DNA of 24,854 bases. Source: a virus. The stretch's first letter is position 1. Each line of letters starts with the position of its first letter. Positions 2,131 to 17,801 of this stretch are shown here, one piece after another. The notes beneath the pieces are model-generated. The model ran no database searches, had not been told where the DNA came from, and saw only the letters and a program-made list of their open reading frames with translations. The position numbers and the translations under genes were made by a program. The stretch covers positions 1 through 24,854 of IMG/VR virus record IMGVR_UViG_3300036859_000561, one strand, 5' to 3'.

Positions 2131-2139
2131 AAACCCGAC

Positions 2140-2200
2140 TCGCGCCAAGCCGCCAAGGCGCAAAGGATCCAACCCTTCGCGCCTTGGCGGCTTGGCGCGA
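2140..2200. repeat. Family A palindrome, copy A1 (convergent gap)
   Basis: Arms of about 23 bp (tcgcgccaagccgccaagg and its complement) flank a short centre. This copy lies between the end of the + strand cassette (2130) and the end of the - strand operon (2296), so it can fold in transcripts from both sides and may act as a shared terminator. No clear T tract follows on either strand. The rest of the 2131-2295 gap holds only a short aggacag repeat (2280-2293) and no gene. Confidence 0.85.
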
Positions 2201-2295
2201 TCATGGATTCAGAAAGCGCAGCGCGGCCGGCGGGTAGTCGGCCCATGTAGTACAGCGACGGGCCGATTCCAGAAGGCAGAGGACAGAGGACAGAG

Positions 2296-2628
2296 CTACT
2301 TGCCGCCGAGCTTGGTCAGGACCTGCGCCTTGGCCTGCGGATCGGTGTTGAGGAAGCCGACCAGCGAGTCGACGGCGAAGGAATCGAACGTCGCCTGCTG
2401 CTCGCGCTGGGTCTGCTCCTGTTTCTTTTTGAAGATCCAGTTGAGCAGCGGATGGCCGGGCAGGCCGGGCAGCTTGCTGAACGGATCGCTGCCATCGTCC
2501 GGAGTGGGCGTTTTGGGCGTGGACGTGTTGGGCGTGGGAGTGTTCGGCGTGGCGGGCTTGCGCGGGATCAGGTGCCCGAGCAGGGCCGCCCCCGCGGTGA
2601 TCAGGGCGATGATAGCGGACGTTGACAT
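2296..2628 (-). CDS. Small membrane-anchored protein with Thr-Pro-rich linker
   Basis: This 110-residue protein is of unknown function. Residues 4-20 form a hydrophobic segment (SAIIALITAGAALLGHLI) that could be an N-terminal anchor or signal. Residues 25-44 are a low-complexity Thr/Pro/Asn linker made of repeated TPN/TPK units, encoded by an approximately 18-bp degenerate DNA repeat at 2507-2566. A basic helix (FKKKQEQTQREQQ) and a short C-terminal helical part follow. Start ATG 2628 has GGAGATCC about 5 nt upstream. As the last gene of the late operon, next to secreted and anchored proteins, it may work at the envelope during lysis. It could also be a spanin-like part, which cannot be shown from sequence. 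Confidence 0.65.
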   Translation of the reverse strand: MSTSAIIALITAGAALLGHLIPRKPATPNTPTPNTSTPKTPTPDDGSDPFSKLPGLPGHPLLNWIFKKKQEQTQREQQATFDSFAVDSLVGFLNTDPQAKAQVLTKLGGK

Positions 2629-2642
2629 TGGATCTCCGGATT

Positions 2643-2720
2643 CTCGCGCCAAGCCGCTAAGACGCGAAGGGGTTGGGGGTTGGGTTTTGCTTCCTTGGCG
2701 CCTTGGCGGCTTGGCGCGAG
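2643..2720. repeat. Family A palindrome, copy A2
   Basis: Intergenic palindrome with outer arms ctcgcgccaagccgc and gcggcttggcgcgag. It lies 6 nt after the stop of the gene to its right and 14 nt before the start of the gene to its left. The centre is longer and G/T-rich (ggggttgggggttggg) compared with the other copies. Confidence 0.85.
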
Positions 2721-2726
2721 ATCCAG

Positions 2727-3593
2727 TTACACCGCATACCGCCGGCGCAAGCTCAGCAGCAGCGACAACAGCGCTGCCCCCGTCGCGCCCCACTGCGATG
2801 TCTGATCGACGTCGATCCCGTCCAGGATGGGCGACGCCGGCGGTCCTGGCGTCGGCGATGGCAGCTTCGCCGGATCCGGATCGCTGTCGGGCTTGTAGCC
2901 GCCGTCGGCCTTCCGCAGCGCCTCGGCCAACTGCGCGGCGCAATCGGGACCCGCGTAGGTGCGCAGGCGGAAGCGCACCAAGGCGCGGCCCTGGGCGTCG
3001 GCCGCGCCTTGGTAAGTAATCCCCTCGGCCAGGCCGATCTGGCCGACGTGCCAGTCGGTGGGCGCGTAAGCATTTATGTGAAGCTTCCCGCGCCAGGCCC
3101 GCAGCGCGGGGTGAGCGTTGATGTCGTTGAGGAACTGTTGGCGCGGCGCGTCGGGCAGCACCGCGGTCAGGAAGTGCTTTTCCCCTTCTCCCCTTCTCCC
3201 CTTCTCCCCTTCTCCCCTTCTCTCTTGATAGGAGTCATCCAGTTTCCGCAGCGCGGCTTGCTTGTCGGCCGGTTGGCCGTTGATCTGATAGGTCGGCGCT
3301 CCGACTGGCGGGATCTTGTCGGCTTGCACGCCGCCGGGGAACGGATCGTCGCCGATCGCCGGGCGCGGGCGGGACAGGCCGAAGGTGGCGACCAGGTCAA
3401 CCTGGTGGGCCTTCCCTTCGGTCTGCCAGTTGGCCGTCAGCGGATCGAGCATGCCGATCTTCTCGCCGCGCCAATACAGATCGAGGCGACCGGCGTCGGG
3501 CGACTGATACCAGCCGTGGCAGGCAGTCGGCGACTCGGCCGGGGCCAGGGCGGTGAATAGGAGCAGTGCGAGCAATGGCAAACCACGACGCAT
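2727..3593 (-). CDS. Secreted protein with signal peptide and hydrophobic C-terminal tail
   Basis: This 288-residue protein is not recognised. The N-terminus is a clear signal peptide (MRRGLPLLALLLFTALAPAE, likely cut near residue 20). The mature part has no motif I can name. A Pro-rich stretch at about 244-256 precedes a C-terminal end of hydrophobic residues followed by RRR (TGAALLSLLLSLRRRYAV, 271-288). This resembles surface-sorting tails such as PEP-CTERM in layout, although the PEP box is not evident. Residues 124-139 (RRGEGEKGRRGEGE) come from an 8-bp DNA repeat and look like an insertion. Start ATG 3593 was chosen because it begins the signal peptide. The in-frame extension upstream is encoded by palindrome A3. 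Secretion and neighbours suggest an envelope or lysis role, by inference. Confidence 0.7.
   Translation of the reverse strand: MRRGLPLLALLLFTALAPAESPTACHGWYQSPDAGRLDLYWRGEKIGMLDPLTANWQTEGKAHQVDLVATFGLSRPRPAIGDDPFPGGVQADKIPPVGAPTYQINGQPADKQAALRKLDDSYQERRGEGEKGRRGEGEKHFLTAVLPDAPRQQFLNDINAHPALRAWRGKLHINAYAPTDWHVGQIGLAEGITYQGAADAQGRALVRFRLRTYAGPDCAAQLAEALRKADGGYKPDSDPDPAKLPSPTPGPPASPILDGIDVDQTSQWGATGAALLSLLLSLRRRYAV
3181..3220. repeat. 8-bp tandem repeat (tccccttc x5) inside a coding region
   Basis: Five exact 8-bp units, with a partial unit on the left and a degenerate one on the right, lie inside the signal-peptide gene and encode alternating Arg/Gly/Glu/Lys. One unit gained or lost would shift the frame. 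Confidence 0.9.
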
Positions 3594-3607
3594 GATTATG
3601 ACTCGAT

Positions 3608-3672
3608 CTCGCGCCAAGCCGCCAAGGCGCAAAGCGAAAAAGCATCTTCGCGCCTTGGCGGCTTGGCGCGAG
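3608..3672. repeat. Family A palindrome, copy A3
   Basis: A 65-bp palindrome with 27-nt arms (ctcgcgccaagccgccaagg and complement) and an AT-richer centre (aaagcgaaaaagcatctt). It begins 8 nt after the cysteine-peptidase stop and ends 14 nt before the next start codon. Confidence 0.9.
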
Positions 3673-3680
3673 TGTTGACT

Positions 3681-4595
3681 CTATCTGCTCACCGGCACGG
3701 GCGGCGGCGGCGGCGCCAACAGCACAATGGCCCAGCCTCCCCCACCGCCTTTCCAGCGCGATTCGAATTCCGCGGGCGTCATCCACAGGTACTTGCCGGG
3801 ATAGTTGTTGTCGAGGATCACCGCCCACTTGTCGGACAGGTGCACCAGGTTGACCATGTGGCTGATCGGGCCGCGGTGGAAGACGCCATCGCGGCCGTCG
3901 TAGGTGACACAGACGAACCGGCCGGTGCCGAGCGCCAGGCGCAGGAACTCCATGTCGCCCCCGGTGTGCTGGATGTAATCGGGGACGGGCAAGCCGCGGT
4001 CGCGGGCGATCTGCGGGATCAGCTTGGCGACCTTCTCGGGATAACCGCCGCCGGGGATGTTGTTTTGCCGCATCCATTCGGGGAAGTGCATCAGCGCCGG
4101 GACGTTCTGATAGCGGGCGGCGTGGTCGATCGAGCGGAAGACGCAGCAGCCGAGGCCCTTGACCGAGATGTTGGTTTGGTGCTGCGCGATGGGCAAGTCG
4201 ACGGTAATCTCCTCGCCGTGGTTGGCCGGGCCGTTTGCATCAATCCCAACAGGAGATGGCGATCGAACAGGAGGCAACGGAGGAAACAGAGAGGCCGGCT
4301 CTGTTTCCTCCGTTGCCTCCTGTTCGATCGGTATCTCATCAACAGGAGGCAACGGAGCAAACGGAGCCAGCCCCATTGCATCCTGTTCGATCGTTACCTC
4401 GTGAGCCGCGGCCTGCACGGGCCTGGCCGTCGCCGGCCGACCGCGCCAACTGTAGGCACGCTCGATCAGCCAGATCACAAACAGCCCCCCGAGCGCAAGC
4501 AGCAGGCCAGCGAGGATGCCGCGCAGCCAGTGCCGCCGGCAATCGGGCAGCGTCGGGCGCGGCGTGCGCAGATCGATTATGGTGGGCGAACTCAT
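3681..4595 (-). CDS. Membrane-anchored papain-like cysteine peptidase (C39-like)
   Basis: This 304-residue protein has one transmembrane segment (about 26-45, GILAGLLLALGGLFVIWLIE) and a long linker. A C-terminal domain follows with a plausible Cys-His-Asn/Asp catalytic set: GCCVF at 149-153, SHMVNL with His246, and LDNNYP at 261-266. The order and spacing fit papain-like or C39-like peptidases. The N-terminal cytosolic or signal-anchor part is basic. Residues 68-112 of the linker are encoded by a family B palindrome read in frame. ATG 4595 overlaps the stop of the three-helix membrane protein (ATGA), so the two are coupled. In this position it could be a membrane-tethered lysin that cuts peptidoglycan cross-links, or a processing peptidase. 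Activity and substrate are inferred. Confidence 0.65.
   Translation of the reverse strand: MSSPTIIDLRTPRPTLPDCRRHWLRGILAGLLLALGGLFVIWLIERAYSWRGRPATARPVQAAAHEVTIEQDAMGLAPFAPLPPVDEIPIEQEATEETEPASLFPPLPPVRSPSPVGIDANGPANHGEEITVDLPIAQHQTNISVKGLGCCVFRSIDHAARYQNVPALMHFPEWMRQNNIPGGGYPEKVAKLIPQIARDRGLPVPDYIQHTGGDMEFLRLALGTGRFVCVTYDGRDGVFHRGPISHMVNLVHLSDKWAVILDNNYPGKYLWMTPAEFESRWKGGGGGWAIVLLAPPPPPVPVSR
4260..4330. repeat. Family B palindrome, copy B1, inside the cysteine-peptidase gene
   Basis: A perfect 32-bp inverted repeat (4260-4291 and 4299-4330; arm begins cgatcgaacaggaggcaacg) with a 7-nt loop. A second, degenerate copy follows at about 4340-4392. Both are translated in frame, giving the IEQEATEETE and PLPPV residues of the linker. 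Confidence 0.9.
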
Positions 4596-4906
4596 GGACG
4601 GATCTCCGGGGCACTCTGCTGCCAGGCGACCAGGAACGCGATGAAGCCGGTCAGCAGGCAAAGAGCCGGCTTGAGGAACTCCCACCAGCCCGGCCAGATA
4701 TCATGCTTGGCGACGAAGAAATGCGCGCCGAGCCCGCCGTAGGCGACGGCGATGATCGGCCACGACAGATAGAGGCGCTGCATTTGCTTCGAGAGCGTCG
4801 CCTCGTTGCCGATGCACGCGGCCAGGATCACGTCGAGCACGATCAGCGCGACGAAGATGCCGGCGATCAGGTAGCGCGTCGTCAATGGGCTCCAACCGTC
4901 GAGCAT
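4592..4906 (-). CDS. Three-helix small membrane protein (holin candidate)
   Basis: This 104-residue protein has three hydrophobic segments: about 12-31 (YLIAGIFVALIVLDVILAA), 49-67 (SWPIIAVAYGGLGAHFFVA) and 79-95 (PALCLLTGFIAFLVAW). Short charged loops and no large soluble domain are present. Size and topology fit a class I holin. The gene immediately precedes, and overlaps by 4 nt, the membrane-anchored cysteine peptidase, an order typical of holin-lysin pairs. No sequence family is recognised, so it may also be an unrelated membrane accessory protein. ATG 4906 follows palindrome A4 by 13 nt, with a weak AAGG-type ribosome site. Confidence 0.65.
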   Translation of the reverse strand: MLDGWSPLTTRYLIAGIFVALIVLDVILAACIGNEATLSKQMQRLYLSWPIIAVAYGGLGAHFFVAKHDIWPGWWEFLKPALCLLTGFIAFLVAWQQSAPEIRP

Positions 4907-4919
4907 CTTTGCCGACCTT

Positions 4920-4983
4920 CTCGCGCTAAGCCGCCAAGGCGCGAAGATGTTTTTTCGCTTTGCGACTTGGCGGCTTCGCGCGA
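4920..4983. repeat. Family A palindrome, copy A4 (inverted)
   Basis: A 64-bp palindrome lying 3 nt after a stop codon and 13 nt before the next start. Its asymmetric centre matches that of A3 only when reverse-complemented (aaagcgaaaaaacatcttcg), so it is inserted in the opposite orientation to A3, A5 and A6. Confidence 0.85.
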
Positions 4984-4986
4984 CCT

Positions 4987-5427
4987 TCAATCTGCCTTCT
5001 CGATCGTGCAGGTCCCGACCCATTTGGTCGCGCCCGCCTTTGACTTCGGGATCTTGTCGGCCGACTCGCGGGCCTCCTCGATCGCATCCTCGGCATCGCG
5101 GAGCCGATCGGCGAAACCCGGCTTGTCCGGCGCCTCGCCGGCGAAACCGATTGCCGCCTTCGTGCAATCGAGGATCAGCCGCTTCGCATCGCCGCGGTTG
5201 AATTTGGCGCGCTGGCAAAGCAGCGTGAGCAGGAGCGGCCAGGGCACGTCGGGCTTCCATTGCTGCCACTGGGGCTGGTCTTTTTGCAAAGTGCCGAACA
5301 GCTTGATGGTCAGCGCCCTGTCGATCGGATGCGAACCGGGCTCGGGCGCGAACTTGCCGAGTTGCTTGTCGATCGCCTTGGATAGGGCGACCAGCGTGAT
5401 CGGATCGGCGGCGGGATCGTAGGACAC
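4987..5427 (-). CDS. Hypothetical protein in the late operon
   Basis: This protein of about 146 residues is of no recognised family. The GTG at 5427 (VSYDPAADPITLVALSKAID) has GAGG 8 nt upstream and is my preferred start. A GTG at 5550 in the same frame would add 41 residues that are Arg/Pro/Cys-rich and look less like coding sequence. The body is helical with a hydrophobic patch near residues 83-95 (VPWPLLLTLLCQ), too short for a clear membrane segment. A charged helix (RLRDAEDAIEEARESADK) lies near the C-terminus. It lies between a coiled-coil protein and the holin-like gene, and its role is unknown. Confidence 0.6.
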   Translation of the reverse strand: MSYDPAADPITLVALSKAIDKQLGKFAPEPGSHPIDRALTIKLFGTLQKDQPQWQQWKPDVPWPLLLTLLCQRAKFNRGDAKRLILDCTKAAIGFAGEAPDKPGFADRLRDAEDAIEEARESADKIPKSKAGATKWVGTCTIEKAD

Positions 5428-5557
5428 GAAAAGGACCTCGGGGCGAGGGCGAAGGGCAATGTGGGCGTCGGGGTCCCTGGGCGCGGGCGACCGGGCGACG
5501 GTTGTGCTGCACTCACTGTAGCACCGCGGGCGGATGCGCCAGTCGCGCACGCGCCAA

Positions 5558-5575
5558 AATCCTACCGGTAGGATT
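5558..5575. promoter_or_regulatory. Perfect 18-bp palindrome aatcctaccggtaggatt
   Basis: An uninterrupted 9-bp dyad starts at the stop codon of the coiled-coil gene, upstream of the following gene. On the transcribed strand it is followed by TT, making a weak terminator-like end, but as a loop-free dyad it equally fits a dimeric repressor site. The 5428-5557 stretch holds no other gene I would support beyond the possible N-terminal extension. Confidence 0.45.
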
Positions 5576-6075
5576 CAGGCCAAGTCGCGTTCGAGCGCAT
5601 CCAGTTGCTTGCGGAGCTTGTCGCGCTCGGCTTCCTTCTCCGCGCGGGCCTTCTGTTCGGCGTCGGCCTTCATCTCCGGATCGTGTTTCGCCAACAACGC
5701 GCGGGCTTCGTCGCGCTCGCCGATCGCCGCGGCCAGCGCTGCTTCCGCAGCTTGCGCGCGCCGGCTCAGGTCGCCTTCGCGCGCCTTTTGCTTTTCGGCA
5801 TCGGCCGCGTGCTGCTCGTGCAGCCGCTTGACGGCCTCGGCGTGTTCTTTCTCCTTGGCGGCCAGTTGCTCGCGGCCCTGCTGGCGCAACTGCTCGGCGA
5901 GGCGAGACTGTTGCGCCCGCGCCGTCTGCACGGCGACGAGTTCGCCGCGGTGCCCGTCGCGCTCGAGAATGACCCGGTCGCGCTCCGCGGTCATGCGGCC
6001 GAGCGATTCGGCGAGCGACTGGTTGGCGGCCAGCGCCTCCGCCAGCGACTGTTTGGTCCGTTGCAATTCGTCCAT
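5575..6075 (-). CDS. Coiled-coil protein
   Basis: This 166-residue protein is almost entirely heptad-patterned and very rich in Ala, Glu, Gln, Arg and Lys (for example SLAEALAANQSLAESLGRM near residue 10). It is predicted to be a long helical rod. No enzymatic motif, signal peptide or membrane segment is seen. The ATG at 6075 has an AGGGG ribosome site 6-7 nt upstream. It follows the tail fibre gene by 32 nt, so it may be a fibre chaperone, a fibre stalk subunit or a structural spacer. All of these are inferred from position and composition. Confidence 0.7.
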   Translation of the reverse strand: MDELQRTKQSLAEALAANQSLAESLGRMTAERDRVILERDGHRGELVAVQTARAQQSRLAEQLRQQGREQLAAKEKEHAEAVKRLHEQHAADAEKQKAREGDLSRRAQAAEAALAAAIGERDEARALLAKHDPEMKADAEQKARAEKEAERDKLRKQLDALERDLA

Positions 6076-6107
6076 CGCGTCCCCTTAAAGCAACAACATC
6101 CGACATC

Positions 6108-7664
6108 TCACGCCAGCACCCCCGCCGCCTGCAGGTCGGCGATCAGCGTGCCCAGAACGTCCGCGATCTCGTCGAGCGTGGTCGCGTTGGCATCGTAAGA
6201 TCGATCGGTCGTCACGTTCGATGGCGTATAGGTCGCGATCTGATAAATGCCCAGGGTCGCCAGCGCGGCCGCGGCGTCGGCATCGTCGAGCAATGAGCGG
6301 GCGAACGAGGTGCAGGTAATCTCCTCCCCGGCCCCGGCCCCGCCAGAGGATCGGCCGAAGAGAACGTCCGTCGCGCCGGCGTGCAGGTAGCCGGCGGTGA
6401 CGGTGTCGGAGATCAGATCGGCGGTGATCGACGGCGTGCCGTCGTTGTAGGTGAGGTCGATGCGGCCCGAGTCGACGAGGATGCCGCCGACAGCATCCTG
6501 GGCGGCCTCGGCGAAGTCGGAGATGCTGCCCGAAGCCAGCGACGTGGAGCCGCCAATGACGAGGCCGCCGACAACGTCCACGGTCACGAGCGGATCGCCG
6601 ACGTCGGTCGTCGTTCCATCGGACCAATCGAGAATGGCGTAGTTGTAAATCCCATAATGCGGCTGGCCGACCGTACCCCCGGTGTATGGGCGATTCCAGC
6701 CCAACCGTAAACGCGCCCAGGTCGTGCCGTTGCAGTCGAGCTCGAGGTAGGCCGAAGTCCGGTCATCCGTCGACGCCTCTCGTTCGTCGCGCGATTGCAG
6801 CGTCAGCACCGATTCGCCCAAGTGATACAGCACGCCAAACGATTCTGGCGTGACTCCGCTGCCCTTCAGGTAGAGCCCAGGGCTGGAACCTGGAGGAACG
6901 CCAGTGCCTGGAACGTCGCCCAGTGAGACAATCAAGTCCGTGTCACCGCCGGCGCCGCTTACGCTGACGTTAAAACTCGACAACAGCCCTTCGACCTTCT
7001 TCCTGCCCGCGCCGAGTTGCTGGTCCTCGACGAGATCGACCACGCCGATTTGCGTCGCGGCTGCCGGCAACAAATCGATGCGGACCTGGTTGGCCGCCGG
7101 CTGCGACAGCTCGAACCCGTCCTCCTGATCGAAGATGAGCTTGCTGATCGCCGCGTACGAGGAAAACGTGTCGAGCGTTTCGACCGCCAGCGTCGGCAGC
7201 AAATCGATCCGGACCTGGTTGGCCGCCGGCTGCGAAAGCGCGAACCCGTCCGTCTGATCGAAAATGAACCTGGTGATCCCGCTATAGGCGGGCGTGCCGT
7301 CGAGTTCTTCGACCGTGCTGCTGCCAGCGCCGCCGACGACGAACACCGGCCGCGTGTCGCCGCCGATCGTGAAGTCGCCGAAGCGCAGGCCGAGGTACTC
7401 AACGCTGGCGTCGTCGGGATCGATTGCGCCGACGGCCGCGAAGCACCACACAGCGCCGAAGTCGTCCCACGCCTCGTCGACCGAGTTCCACAGCGTCGCG
7501 TTGGCCGGGAAGTAGCCGCTGTCCTCAGCGCCGGTAATCGTCACATAGGCGACCTGCTGACTGGTAGCCAGAGGCTGGGCGTCGGGCGTTCTCCGCTCGC
7601 CCTCGGCGCGGATCAGCCGCTTCAGGCCCCGCAACGTCCGTTCGGAAAAGCTCTGCAACGCCAT
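6108..7664 (-). CDS. Tail fibre-like protein
   Basis: This 518-residue protein is a probable virion fibre or side-tail protein. The N-terminus (MALQSFSERTLRGLKRLIR) is basic and could be an attachment helix. The body is Gly, Ser, Thr and Asp-rich with many short beta-like stretches. It ends in a helical ATTLDEIADVLGTLIADLQA region of the sort seen near fibre C-termini. Two copies of a module (DGFALSQPAANQVRIDLLP and DGFELSQPAANQVRIDLLP) lie 43 residues apart. A C-terminal SLLDDADAAAALATLGI segment is a motif I have seen in tail fibres. ATG 7664 lies 14 nt after palindrome A5, and the longer frame upstream is only repeat-encoded. It probably contacts the host surface. Confidence 0.75.
   Translation of the reverse strand: MALQSFSERTLRGLKRLIRAEGERRTPDAQPLATSQQVAYVTITGAEDSGYFPANATLWNSVDEAWDDFGAVWCFAAVGAIDPDDASVEYLGLRFGDFTIGGDTRPVFVVGGAGSSTVEELDGTPAYSGITRFIFDQTDGFALSQPAANQVRIDLLPTLAVETLDTFSSYAAISKLIFDQEDGFELSQPAANQVRIDLLPAAATQIGVVDLVEDQQLGAGRKKVEGLLSSFNVSVSGAGGDTDLIVSLGDVPGTGVPPGSSPGLYLKGSGVTPESFGVLYHLGESVLTLQSRDEREASTDDRTSAYLELDCNGTTWARLRLGWNRPYTGGTVGQPHYGIYNYAILDWSDGTTTDVGDPLVTVDVVGGLVIGGSTSLASGSISDFAEAAQDAVGGILVDSGRIDLTYNDGTPSITADLISDTVTAGYLHAGATDVLFGRSSGGAGAGEEITCTSFARSLLDDADAAAALATLGIYQIATYTPSNVTTDRSYDANATTLDEIADVLGTLIADLQAAGVLA
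7071..7266. repeat. Direct duplication inside the tail fibre gene (67 bp, period 129 bp)
   Basis: Bases 7071-7137 and 7200-7266 are nearly identical (both contain ggacctggttggccgccggc) and 129 bp apart, so the duplication keeps the frame (43 codons). Confidence 0.85.
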
Positions 7665-7678
7665 GCTCTGTCTCGAAG

Positions 7679-7742
7679 CTCGCGCCAACCGCCAAGGCGC
7701 TAAGCGAAAGAACGTCTTCGCGCCTTGGCGGCTTGGCGCGAG
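7679..7742. repeat. Family A palindrome, copy A5
   Basis: A 64-bp palindrome 8 nt after the adaptor gene stop and 14 nt before the fibre start. The leader after it (ttcgagaca) is shared with the leader after A6. The left arm lacks one base (caaccgcc instead of caagccgcc). Confidence 0.9.
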
Positions 7743-7750
7743 ACTCACCG

Positions 7751-8056
7751 TCAAGGGCCGCTGACGTCGAGTTCGAGATAGACCGTGATGTCGCGGCCGT
7801 TGAGTAACGTGGCCAGATAGGTGACGGTGTAGGTGGTGCCGGCATCGCCCCCCTGGATGCGCGTCTCGACCCGCCGCGCCGTGGCCGGCGGCGAGTCCAG
7901 CACCGGCGCGCCGAGCGAAAGCCCCGATGGCGACGCCGAGACCTCGGCCGAGACGATCGGATTATCGACGGTCACCTGCCGCCAGCGCCTGAGGTTGACG
8001 GCGAAATCGAGATCGTCGGTGGGCGCTTTTGTGCCGTAGACCTTGGGGATGCTCAT
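7751..8056 (-). CDS. Phage fibre-tail adaptor-like protein (Gp77-like)
   Basis: This 101-residue, all-beta-looking protein has the pattern DDLDFAVNLRRW near the N-terminus, VSAEVSASPSGLSL in the middle, and RIQGGDAGTTYTVTYLATLL with GRDI at the end. This matches the small Ig-like phage proteins called fibre-tail adaptors (Gp77-like), which link fibres to the tail tip. Its position directly before the fibre gene fits. ATG 8056 has GAGA 6-8 nt upstream. It lies between palindromes A6 and A5. The family call rests on remembered sequence pattern. Confidence 0.7.
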   Translation of the reverse strand: MSIPKVYGTKAPTDDLDFAVNLRRWRQVTVDNPIVSAEVSASPSGLSLGAPVLDSPPATARRVETRIQGGDAGTTYTVTYLATLLNGRDITVYLELDVSGP

Positions 8057-8078
8057 GTTTGTCTCGAAACAGACGGAT

Positions 8079-8143
8079 CTCGCGCCAAGCCGCCAAGCCG
8101 CGAGATGAAAGAACGCCTTCGCGCCTTGGCGGCTTGGCGCGAG
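8079..8143. repeat. Family A palindrome, copy A6
   Basis: A 65-bp palindrome 8 nt after one stop and 22 nt before the next start. On the transcribed strand it is followed by GAGATCCGTCT, the same bases that follow A7. Confidence 0.9.
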
Positions 8144-8151
8144 ACTCCGTG

Positions 8152-8451
8152 TCACTCGACCCAGACAAACACCAGTTCCCGCGCCGCCGCCAGCGGGTGA
8201 ATGTTCTTGCCTTTGGCCAGGGCCATTACCTTGCGGATGGCGCTGCGCGGGTCCATGCTGCCGGCGTCGGGCACATCGATCACCCTGCCGATCGTGCGTT
8301 CCTCCGGCGTGCCTGGCTTGATCGTTCGCCGCGCGATGCGCTTGCCGGCCCGCAGGCAGCGCAGGCACTGCCGCAGCGCCGCCCATTCTTTTTCGCTGAA
8401 CGGCGCGCCGTGGATGGTTTCCAGATCGTCGCGGACGGATTGATCGAACAT
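8152..8451 (-). CDS. Hypothetical small tail-region protein
   Basis: This 99-residue protein from ATG 8451 (MFDQSVRDDLE) has GGGG 8 nt upstream. An alternative ATG at 8463 adds four residues. No family is recognised. It has helical stretches, a Cys pair (LRQCLRCLRAGKRIARR) and a basic middle, and ends in LAAARELVFVWVE. It lies between a common phage virion protein and the fibre adaptor, with a family A palindrome on each side, so a minor tail or tail-assembly role is likely by context only. Confidence 0.6.
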   Translation of the reverse strand: MFDQSVRDDLETIHGAPFSEKEWAALRQCLRCLRAGKRIARRTIKPGTPEERTIGRVIDVPDAGSMDPRSAIRKVMALAKGKNIHPLAAARELVFVWVE

Positions 8452-8476
8452 AAGTCGCCCCATGAAAAAGACGGAT

Positions 8477-8538
8477 CTCGCGCCAAGCCGCGAAGCCGCC
8501 AAGCGAAGGCACTTCGCGCCTTGGCGGCTTGGCGCGAG
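8477..8538. repeat. Family A palindrome, copy A7 (rightmost)
   Basis: A 62-bp palindrome 2 nt after a stop and 13 or 25 nt before the next start, depending on which ATG is used. Its left half has an extra cgaagccgcc step. No family A copy lies to the right of this one. Confidence 0.9.
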
Positions 8539-8540
8539 AG

Positions 8541-8966
8541 TCAGTTGAGGTTCTCGATGCCCTCGGCGTTCCACTGCAAATCGAAGTTGCCGCCGCTGGC
8601 CGTCTTGTCAGCGCCGAAGTCCAGGTAGAACAGCAGTTCGTCGGCGGACGCCGCGCCGCCGCGGCTCTTGTAGAGGACGGCCCCGCGCGCGGTGATGCTG
8701 GCGCTGGCCCATTGCACGTCGTCGGCGTCGAAGACGCCTTCGTTGTCGGTGTTGTCCTGGGTCACCGACTTGTTCGCCAGCGCCGCCCCGCCCGCGGTAT
8801 AGCCCGTCCCCGAAACCTCGTTGGTGATGTCGGAACGCTTGGTGTGCGCATCCTGGTCGGGCGTGTAGGTGGAGGTCACCAGCATGACTTTGATGGTGTC
8901 GGTATCGAGGTCGAGCGCCCCGTTTTGCACGTCGCGCTTGAAGCTGTTGTAAATCGTGTCGGCCAT
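8541..8966 (-). CDS. Conserved phage virion-associated protein
   Basis: This 141-residue protein belongs to a family I recognise from many siphophages. It has an N-terminal YNSFKRDVQNGALDLDTD stretch, then KVMLVTSTYTPDQDAH with KRSDITNEV, then VLYKSRGGAASADELLFYL near the C-terminus. Members are usually found among tail-tip genes and are annotated as hypothetical or virion structural. Function is not established to my knowledge. The ATG at 8966 has GGAG 8 nt upstream and follows the LamG gene stop by 2 nt, so the two are translated as a pair. Confidence 0.75.
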   Translation of the reverse strand: MADTIYNSFKRDVQNGALDLDTDTIKVMLVTSTYTPDQDAHTKRSDITNEVSGTGYTAGGAALANKSVTQDNTDNEGVFDADDVQWASASITARGAVLYKSRGGAASADELLFYLDFGADKTASGGNFDLQWNAEGIENLN

Positions 8967-8968
8967 TG

Positions 8969-10099
8969 CTAGCGCTCCGGGATGTCGAACTCGGTCTGCC
9001 GCTCGGGGATGTCGAACTCGGTCTGCCGCTCGGGGATGTCGAACTCGGTCTGCCGCTCGGGGATGTCGAACTCGATCGACGGCTCGACGAACAGCCCCTG
9101 CTGCCCCACGAAGGCCCTGGCCGCCGTCGAGGCGGTCACCACCTGGACATTGGGCGTCGCCCTGGCCCCGGTCTTGATCGTCCGCGCCGGCAGGCTCGTT
9201 GTCAGCACCTGCACGTTGGGCGTGGCCAGCGCTCCGCCCTTGGCCAGGGCCGCGGGCAGGCTCGCGGTCAGGGCCTGCACCGCCGGCTGAACCAAAGCCC
9301 CGCCGGTAACCGTCCGGCTCGGCAGGCTCGCGGTGACGTTCTGCACAGCCGGCGCGACCAAAGCCCCGCCGGTGACCGTCCGGCTCGGCAGCGAAGCGGT
9401 TACACTCACCACCGACGCGTTGACGGTCACTCCAGAGCCGCCGCCGAACTCCGAATAGGCGAGGCCGTTGCCGGAGTTGTAGAGGCTGGTGCGCTCGTCC
9501 GCGGTGAGCACGCGGCCCCACATGCCCCACTCGTCGAGGTAGGCGCCGAGCATATTGTTCGGCGTGCTGTCGGCCCCGAAGCAAAACTGAAACGTGCCAT
9601 CGTGGCAGCCGCCCGAATACGAGGCGGTCTCGGCCGTGGCGTTGTCCACCTGGATCGCGACCTGGTTGGCGGCGCTGTCGTGCCAGACGACGATGTAATG
9701 CCAGGCGCCGCCCGAGACGCTCGAGGTGGTGCCGTGTGTGATGTCGCCGGTCCCCTTCACGTAGAAGTAGAGCTTGTCGTCGGAATAACGGTACAGGCTG
9801 TACTCGCCCGAGCCAGCCTGGTTGTCCTTGGCGAAGAGGAACTGGTAGATGCCGTTAGTGTTGAATTGGACCCAGCCGGCGAACGTGAAGTCCTCATCGC
9901 CGAAGCTGAAGTCGGCGTTGTCGGCGTGGTTGAAGTATTCGCTGTTGGCGCGGATGAAGTCGCGGGCGCCGTTGATCTTGCCCGTCGCCGTGCCAACGGT
10001 GTTGTTGTCGGTCAGATCGTTGGAGCCGTGCGCATCGAGGGCGTTGCCCGACGCCTCGTCGAGTTTCCAGTAGCTGATCAGGTTCGTGAGCAACGACAC
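8969..10099 (-). CDS. LamG-like tail protein with C-terminal tandem repeats (receptor-binding candidate)
   Basis: This 376-residue protein has residues 5 to about 215 forming a concanavalin A/LamG-like beta-sandwich (ISYWKLDEASGNALDAHG at the start, FTFAGWVQF, WHYIVVWHDS, and LDEWGMWGRVLTADER near the end). Such domains bind glycans or surface proteins. About five 22-residue repeats follow (VTASLPSRTVTGGALVAPAV type). The C-terminus is four copies of a 9-residue unit (EFDIPERQT), encoded by exact 27-bp DNA repeats. The start is GTG 10099, with AGGA upstream after palindrome B2. The architecture of binding domain plus repetitive stalk suits host recognition. Its position after the tape measure and before the fibre genes supports a tail-tip role. 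Confidence 0.75.
   Translation of the reverse strand: MSLLTNLISYWKLDEASGNALDAHGSNDLTDNNTVGTATGKINGARDFIRANSEYFNHADNADFSFGDEDFTFAGWVQFNTNGIYQFLFAKDNQAGSGEYSLYRYSDDKLYFYVKGTGDITHGTTSSVSGGAWHYIVVWHDSAANQVAIQVDNATAETASYSGGCHDGTFQFCFGADSTPNNMLGAYLDEWGMWGRVLTADERTSLYNSGNGLAYSEFGGGSGVTVNASVVSVTASLPSRTVTGGALVAPAVQNVTASLPSRTVTGGALVQPAVQALTASLPAALAKGGALATPNVQVLTTSLPARTIKTGARATPNVQVVTASTAARAFVGQQGLFVEPSIEFDIPERQTEFDIPERQTEFDIPERQTEFDIPER
8973..9080. repeat. 27-bp tandem repeat x4 at the end of the LamG gene
   Basis: Units start at 8973, 9000, 9027 and 9054. Units 2 and 3 are identical, unit 1 differs at one base, and unit 4 diverges at its end. Each encodes the nine residues EFDIPERQT, so copy-number change would not shift the frame. 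Confidence 0.95.
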
Positions 10100-10125
10100 G
10101 GGCTATGATTCCTGACTTTGTTTCC

Positions 10126-10178
10126 GAACAGGGGGCAACAGAGCAAACGGAGAGATTTGGCTCTGTTCGCTCCTGTTC
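10126..10178. repeat. Family B palindrome, copy B2
   Basis: Arms 10126-10144 and 10160-10178 (gaacagggggcaacagagc type) pair at 16 of 19 positions around a 15-nt centre. The copy fills the 10100-10191 gap, 13 nt after a stop codon and 26 nt before the LamG start. Confidence 0.8.
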
Positions 10179-10191
10179 ATTGCATCCGCAT

Positions 10192-17687: not shown

Positions 17688-17767
17688 CTCTGCCTCTGTT
17701 TCCTCCGTTGCCTCCTGTTCAAATCGGGGCCGGCGCTCCGCAGAAATTGAACAGGAGGAAACAGAGC
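17688..17767. repeat. Family B palindrome, copy B3
   Basis: Arms at about 17695-17721 (tctgtttcctccgttgcctc) and 17747-17767 (ttgaacaggaggaaacagag) pair with one arm carrying an extra gttgcctcc. The copy sits in the 17650-17801 gap, 34 nt after a stop and 38 nt before a start. The rest of the gap has no gene. Confidence 0.8.
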
Positions 17768-17801
17768 AATCCAAAAACGGACGTCAATCCAACGCGACCG
17801 A

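Follow-up and report, generated by a model that had tools for sequence, protein, structure and literature searches.

Why do members of a single palindrome family occupy so many gene junctions in the distal part of a phage late operon, and at nearly fixed distances from the flanking genes? The window we analysed is the whole of virus record IMGVR_UViG_3300036859_000561 (24,854 bp, which may itself be a genome fragment), and it carries on the minus strand the small and large terminase, portal and HK97-type capsid genes followed by the tail genes. No close phage relatives were found by major capsid or TerL among the viral contigs searched. A capsid relative at 43% was found in a single Planctomycetota MAG, but its contig ends before the tail genes and no copy of the palindrome was found there. 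It should be noted that gene starts, and the genes of loci fetched for comparison, are predictions made by a simple script.

The palindromes (referred to here as family A, copies A1–A7) had been put at 61–78 bp in a preliminary description of the locus; all seven are present and measure 62–80 bp, and six were verified as lying between co-directional genes, the exception being A1 which is found between convergent genes 94 nt beyond the final minus-strand stop (Table 1). The half-arm is made of 8-nt units, (GCGNCTTN)n-GCGNGAG, and each half in the window copies follows the pattern GCG-N-CTT-N-GCG-N-CTT-N-GCG-N-GAG. Hairpins at the gene junctions had also been proposed and were recovered, with A1–A7 forming stems of approximately 27–30 bp on the mRNA strand (−38.5 to −64.5 kcal/mol) that are far more stable than chance when compared with dinucleotide shuffles (z −4.3 to −10.8). 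A1 and A3–A7 share 84–94% pairwise identity, with the reverse complement of A4 listed amongst the inverted repeats as 94% identical to A3, while A2 has a different loop and no more than 74% identity to the other window copies (73–74%), and is therefore probably a separate acquisition. Full-length copies retrieved from outside the window share at most about 83% identity with any window copy, and a partial match 40 nt in length is 92% identical to A2. The leaders of A5 and A6 have TTCGAGACA in common outside of the element (p = 7e-4) and those of A6 and A7 have ATCCGTCT (p = 3e-4; both values are before correction for 15 comparisons), and this sharing fits the local copying of segments.

Table 1. 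Palindromic elements of the window and two neighbouring genes (coordinates are window positions; distances and hairpin energies in nt and kcal/mol).
Feature	Position	Strand	Characteristics
A1	2139..2201		Doublet palindrome, convergent junction at operon end; 89% identical to A3
A2	2643..2720		Divergent copy, 32-nt loop; stop-to-element 6, element-to-start 14; between 2727-3593 and 2296-2628
A3	3608..3672	-	Doublet; stop-to-element 8, element-to-start 14; between 3681-4595 and 2727-3593
Family B palindrome pair	4253..4390		Inside coding frame of 3681-4595
A4	4920..4984	+	A3 subfamily, opposite orientation; stop-to-element 2, element-to-start 13; weakest hairpin (-38.5)
A5	7679..7742	-	Doublet, 1-nt deletion in one arm; stop-to-element 8, element-to-start 14; between 7751-8056 and 6108-7664
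Gp77 fiber-tail adaptor domain protein	7751..8056	-	Between A6 and A5
A6	8079..8143	-	Doublet; stop-to-element 8, element-to-start 22; between 8152-8463 and 7751-8056
A7	8477..8538	-	Doublet; stop-to-element 2, element-to-start 13; between 8541-8966 and 8152-8463
Phage protein, phrog_644	8541..8966	-	Upstream of A7; annotated minor tail protein in a Gordonia phage
Family B palindrome	10118..10182		92-nt junction 10192/10099
Family B palindrome	17688..17780		152-nt junction 17802/17649

The claim that these elements occupy most gene junctions is true of the distal part of the operon, where six out of ten junctions (gene 8541–8966 downwards) hold one, and not of the proximal part, where none of the 20 junctions does (Fisher p = 0.0004). 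Across the six co-directional junctions the minus-strand distances are 2–8 nt from stop to element and 13–22 nt from element to start, where the preliminary description gave 2–8 and 13–25 nt, and without their elements the A7, A6, A5, A4, A3 and A2 junctions would be 15, 30, 22, 15, 22 and 20 nt long. Placement is mildly stop-proximal against a uniform model (p = 0.025, six junctions), and falls to chance level when 12 nt are set aside for ribosome binding (p = 0.91, six junctions). Given this last value and residual spacers of only 15–30 nt, the regularity is what is expected of insertions which have survived in a compact operon and is not functional evidence; we therefore reject fixed spacing as a sign of function, and the earlier view that random insertion would not produce such regularity is not supported. 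Why the copies are restricted to the distal operon is not fully accounted for by simple tolerance.

Distances are more scattered in other viral contigs, where 14 co-directional cases gave d5 1–254 and d3 2–75 and nine of the 14 are no more than 20 nt from the stop. In the Verrucomicrobiales MAG G001, nine of ten co-directional doublets are within 20 nt of the stop (p = 0.001, or 0.025 with the ribosome-binding site reserved), and doublets there appear to be enriched in convergent junctions and depleted in divergent ones. Those of two further genomes (G004 and G006) lean to the upstream gene at a greater distance and those of G261 show no such lean, in samples of five to 26 doublets per genome. 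Host copies with identical spacing everywhere had been named beforehand, as part of a refuting condition, and this is borne out in part, as the Verrucomicrobiales MAG has the same stop-proximal placement and other genomes do not. The element is not a cassette for tail and lysis genes, since in other phages the doublet is found at junctions unrelated to these and with looser spacing.

Further analysis of family A homologs bears out the suspected kinship with dispersed repeats of the kind known from planctomycete genomes, as we found them in these and in other bacterial genomes. The half-arm is present in MAGs labelled Myxococcota, Acidobacteria, Verrucomicrobia, Chloroflexi and Planctomycetota, as well as in others labelled Kiritimatiellaeota, Desulfohalobiaceae and Bdellovibrionales, which places family A in at least seven phyla by label, with 1 to 91 exact half-arm copies per genome and no matches to a reversed control pattern in any of the 14 genomes. 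Errors in MAG binning are conceivable for single copies, though not for every cross-phylum occurrence. The distribution is patchy, with the strict half-arm pattern in nine of 392 Planctomycetota genomes, and a looser pattern was found in five of 30 relatives of the rich Verrucomicrobiales MAG (G001 itself counted). In bacterial genomes the family takes the form of inverted doublets, single halves and clusters. We note that some loci in Verrucomicrobia and Planctomycetota MAGs contain alternating half-arm clusters with a regular, BIME-like spacing (L043, L060, L073; L221, L218), and that at L151 (1069–1218) a palindrome of another type (CACAGAG...CTCTGTG) is nested in the loop of a family A doublet.

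Most other phages have a single copy or two, in many cases beside head genes, and the doublet was seen at TerS–TerL, head decoration/head–tail joining, portal, minor tail and tape-measure gene junctions. Two unrelated phages (L006 and L013) have only the element in common (90% over 77 nt). Seven copies in one operon is unusual, as strict full doublets were found in just five viral contigs among 2.9 million, and two of these five represent approximately the same phage. No family A element was detected in isolate phages or plasmids (low-complexity masking was ruled out as the cause), the exact 28-mer half of the window copies was absent from GTDB genomes, and their loop subfamily was absent from other viral contigs. 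No description of family A was found in papers searched by sequence string, a search which is weak on subscription literature.

Copies of family A come and go, as the element that separates lutA and lutB in G001 is absent from this junction in three relatives of about 80% identity. In one of these, at about 80% protein identity, the two genes overlap, and in the other two (loci L249 and L250) the lutA–lutB junction has a different repeat (ACGAATGAACACGAATGAACACGAAT) where G001 has the family A element, and unlike repeats therefore settle in the same gap.

REPIN-type dispersed palindromes are usually described as being tied to a RAYT within one lineage. Family A likewise consists of two inverted short repeats and a spacer which together form a hairpin, and it is extragenic, dispersed and present in many copies as doublets and singlets, with four of 26 G001 doublets located inside predicted ORFs that may be caller errors. 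The resemblance to REPINs and REP doublets (PMC3116915) extends to the occurrence of clusters and to an identity that is higher within a lineage, but family A differs in having a half-arm made of 8-nt units, no GTAG/CGTC tag and no linked RAYT, and in its presence across many phyla as well as in the late operons of phages. The GTAG-/CGTC-tagged palindromes (PMC3733652) are similarly dispersed and have been reported from Planctomycetes, Verrucomicrobia and Chloroflexi as well, but family A is without their defining tetranucleotide. It also resembles MITEs, which are likewise short, non-autonomous inverted repeats scattered in the gaps between genes, but when we looked for target-site duplications the mean match was only slightly above that of shuffles and was driven by clusters with similar flanks, and none was convincing.

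We consider it probable that the window copies are REPIN-like dispersed palindromes which were inserted and amplified in the only sites that a compact operon tolerates. Family A would then be a dispersed and probably non-autonomous palindrome which, in the simplest history, entered the phage at least twice (as the A1/A3–A7 lineage and as A2), with host DNA as the most likely source. One of the two lineages would subsequently have been amplified in the phage or in the lineage of its host, and part of this amplification would have been local copying together with flanking sequence (A5–A7). Selection would have purged insertions into coding sequence, stop codons and the ribosome-binding site, leaving the surviving copies in a gap of a few nucleotides that separates the stop from the leader and so producing the nearly fixed spacing. 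As a by-product each junction copy would place a 27–30 bp hairpin 2–8 nt downstream of a stop codon. Judging by E. coli REPs, such a hairpin may cause terminating ribosomes to stall, shield the upstream mRNA or undergo RNase III cleavage. We infer insertion into this phage from the kinship of the copies, which is closer inside the phage than outside of it, and the nature of the repeat family, its hairpins and cross-phylum spread, the inverted A4, the different junctions occupied in other phages, the lutA–lutB site where relatives lack the element, and a second palindrome family in further junctions of the same operon all point in this direction. Counting against insertion are the lack of a convincing target-site duplication, the failure to find a mobilising enzyme, the distal confinement, and a covariation of arms in G001 which is compatible with selection on the hairpin.

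Two of the alternatives would explain the copies by different means of movement or exchange. Mobilisation as classical REP/REPINs by a RAYT (TnpA-REP) transposase would suit the doublet hairpins, singlets, clusters and extragenic placement, and Y1-type transposases, the superfamily to which RAYTs belong, were found in 12 of the 14 element-bearing genomes. However, the elements do not adjoin these genes, with one half-arm in 90 kb around 30 of them, and no Y1 transposase match was found in two Myxococcota MAGs with 19 and eight halves; nor does a GTAG or CGTC tetranucleotide stand beside the palindrome, where the ends of 54 doublets show only a weak A-T-T preference on the outside, and we regard this origin as very improbable. 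The repeats might instead be recombination seams, providing patches of homology for the exchange of tail and lysis modules between phages, as they flank small modules in the distal operon and the common leader flanks of A5/A6 and A6/A7 are consistent with recombination as well as with copying. This too is very unlikely, since we found no related phage with swapped modules, nor any close relative among the viral contigs searched, and the one or two copies of most other phages are often at head genes.

It is also possible, if unlikely, that these are functional intercistronic hairpins kept for RNase III processing, protection from 3' exonucleases or translational insulation. RNase III sites in T7-like phages are long intercistronic hairpins, and family A resembles them in this respect, but its copies are repeats of a dispersed family which is also found in bacteria. 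The great stability of stems so soon after stop codons and the stop-proximal G001 doublets would agree with a functional role, as would the covariation of arms within elements in G001 (matched in 0 of 2000 shuffles), though this leaves room either for the palindrome being under selection or for the arms being homogenised by the way copies are made. REPs in E. coli are reported to lower translation when a stop codon is no more than 15 nt away, as cited in PMC12306157 (its reference 17), and they too place a hairpin a few nucleotides after the stop in operons, but family A is unrelated to them in sequence and occurs in a phage. Against such a role, the sense strand does not form the more stable hairpin with any bias (it does so in four of seven window copies, and in 7/10, 3/8 and 2/5 elsewhere), the arm lesions in A2 and A4–A7 look one-sided and uncompensated, G261 and G134 copies have a fixed arm mismatch, and the junctions occupied differ between phages. 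Rfam gave no match above the gathering score, with only sub-threshold hairpin look-alikes that were mostly miRNA models. A2–A7 do not have the form of intrinsic terminators, in which a GC-rich hairpin is followed immediately by a U-run on the transcribed strand; a U-run is found only after A1, where GGGTTTTTATT comes directly after the palindrome on the minus strand and might form a terminator with it. We see no sign of strand-specific RNA selection, and an effect of the hairpins on the mRNA is plausible by analogy.

With insertion and tolerance as our preferred reading, what we have is a REPIN-like family which is found across several phyla and in phages, with no mobilising enzyme in view, and which in one phage fills six junctions of one operon. 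Family A itself, being RAYT-less and cross-phylum, is more interesting than the junction arrangement. It offers a natural case for finding what moves RAYT-less palindromes, and for the effect on phage late gene expression of long hairpins placed just after stop codons. A bolder proposal, which we think improbable, is that family A represents a transposase-orphan, octamer-built class of REPIN-like elements which is carried by phages across bacterial phyla, can amplify in a phage genome, and has been co-opted here as intercistronic hairpins that set the expression of individual tail genes.

The second palindrome family, family B (CTCTGTTTCCTCCGTTGCCTCCTGTTC; GAACAGG...CCTGTTC), fills two junctions and forms one in-gene pair (Table 1), and among other viral contigs L264 alone had a near-exact copy. 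At window positions 8973–9080 a 27-bp unit (CGCTCGGGGATGTCGAACTCGGTCTGC) is repeated four times in tandem, in the C-terminal part of a gene whose product has a Laminin_G_3 domain. Short tandem motifs (ACCACTC, GGACAGA and CCCCTTCT) are also found both inside and between genes at positions 140–170, 2268–2297 and 3178–3225, and these are of a kind which we take to be associated with planctomycete-like genomes and may be a hint of the host.
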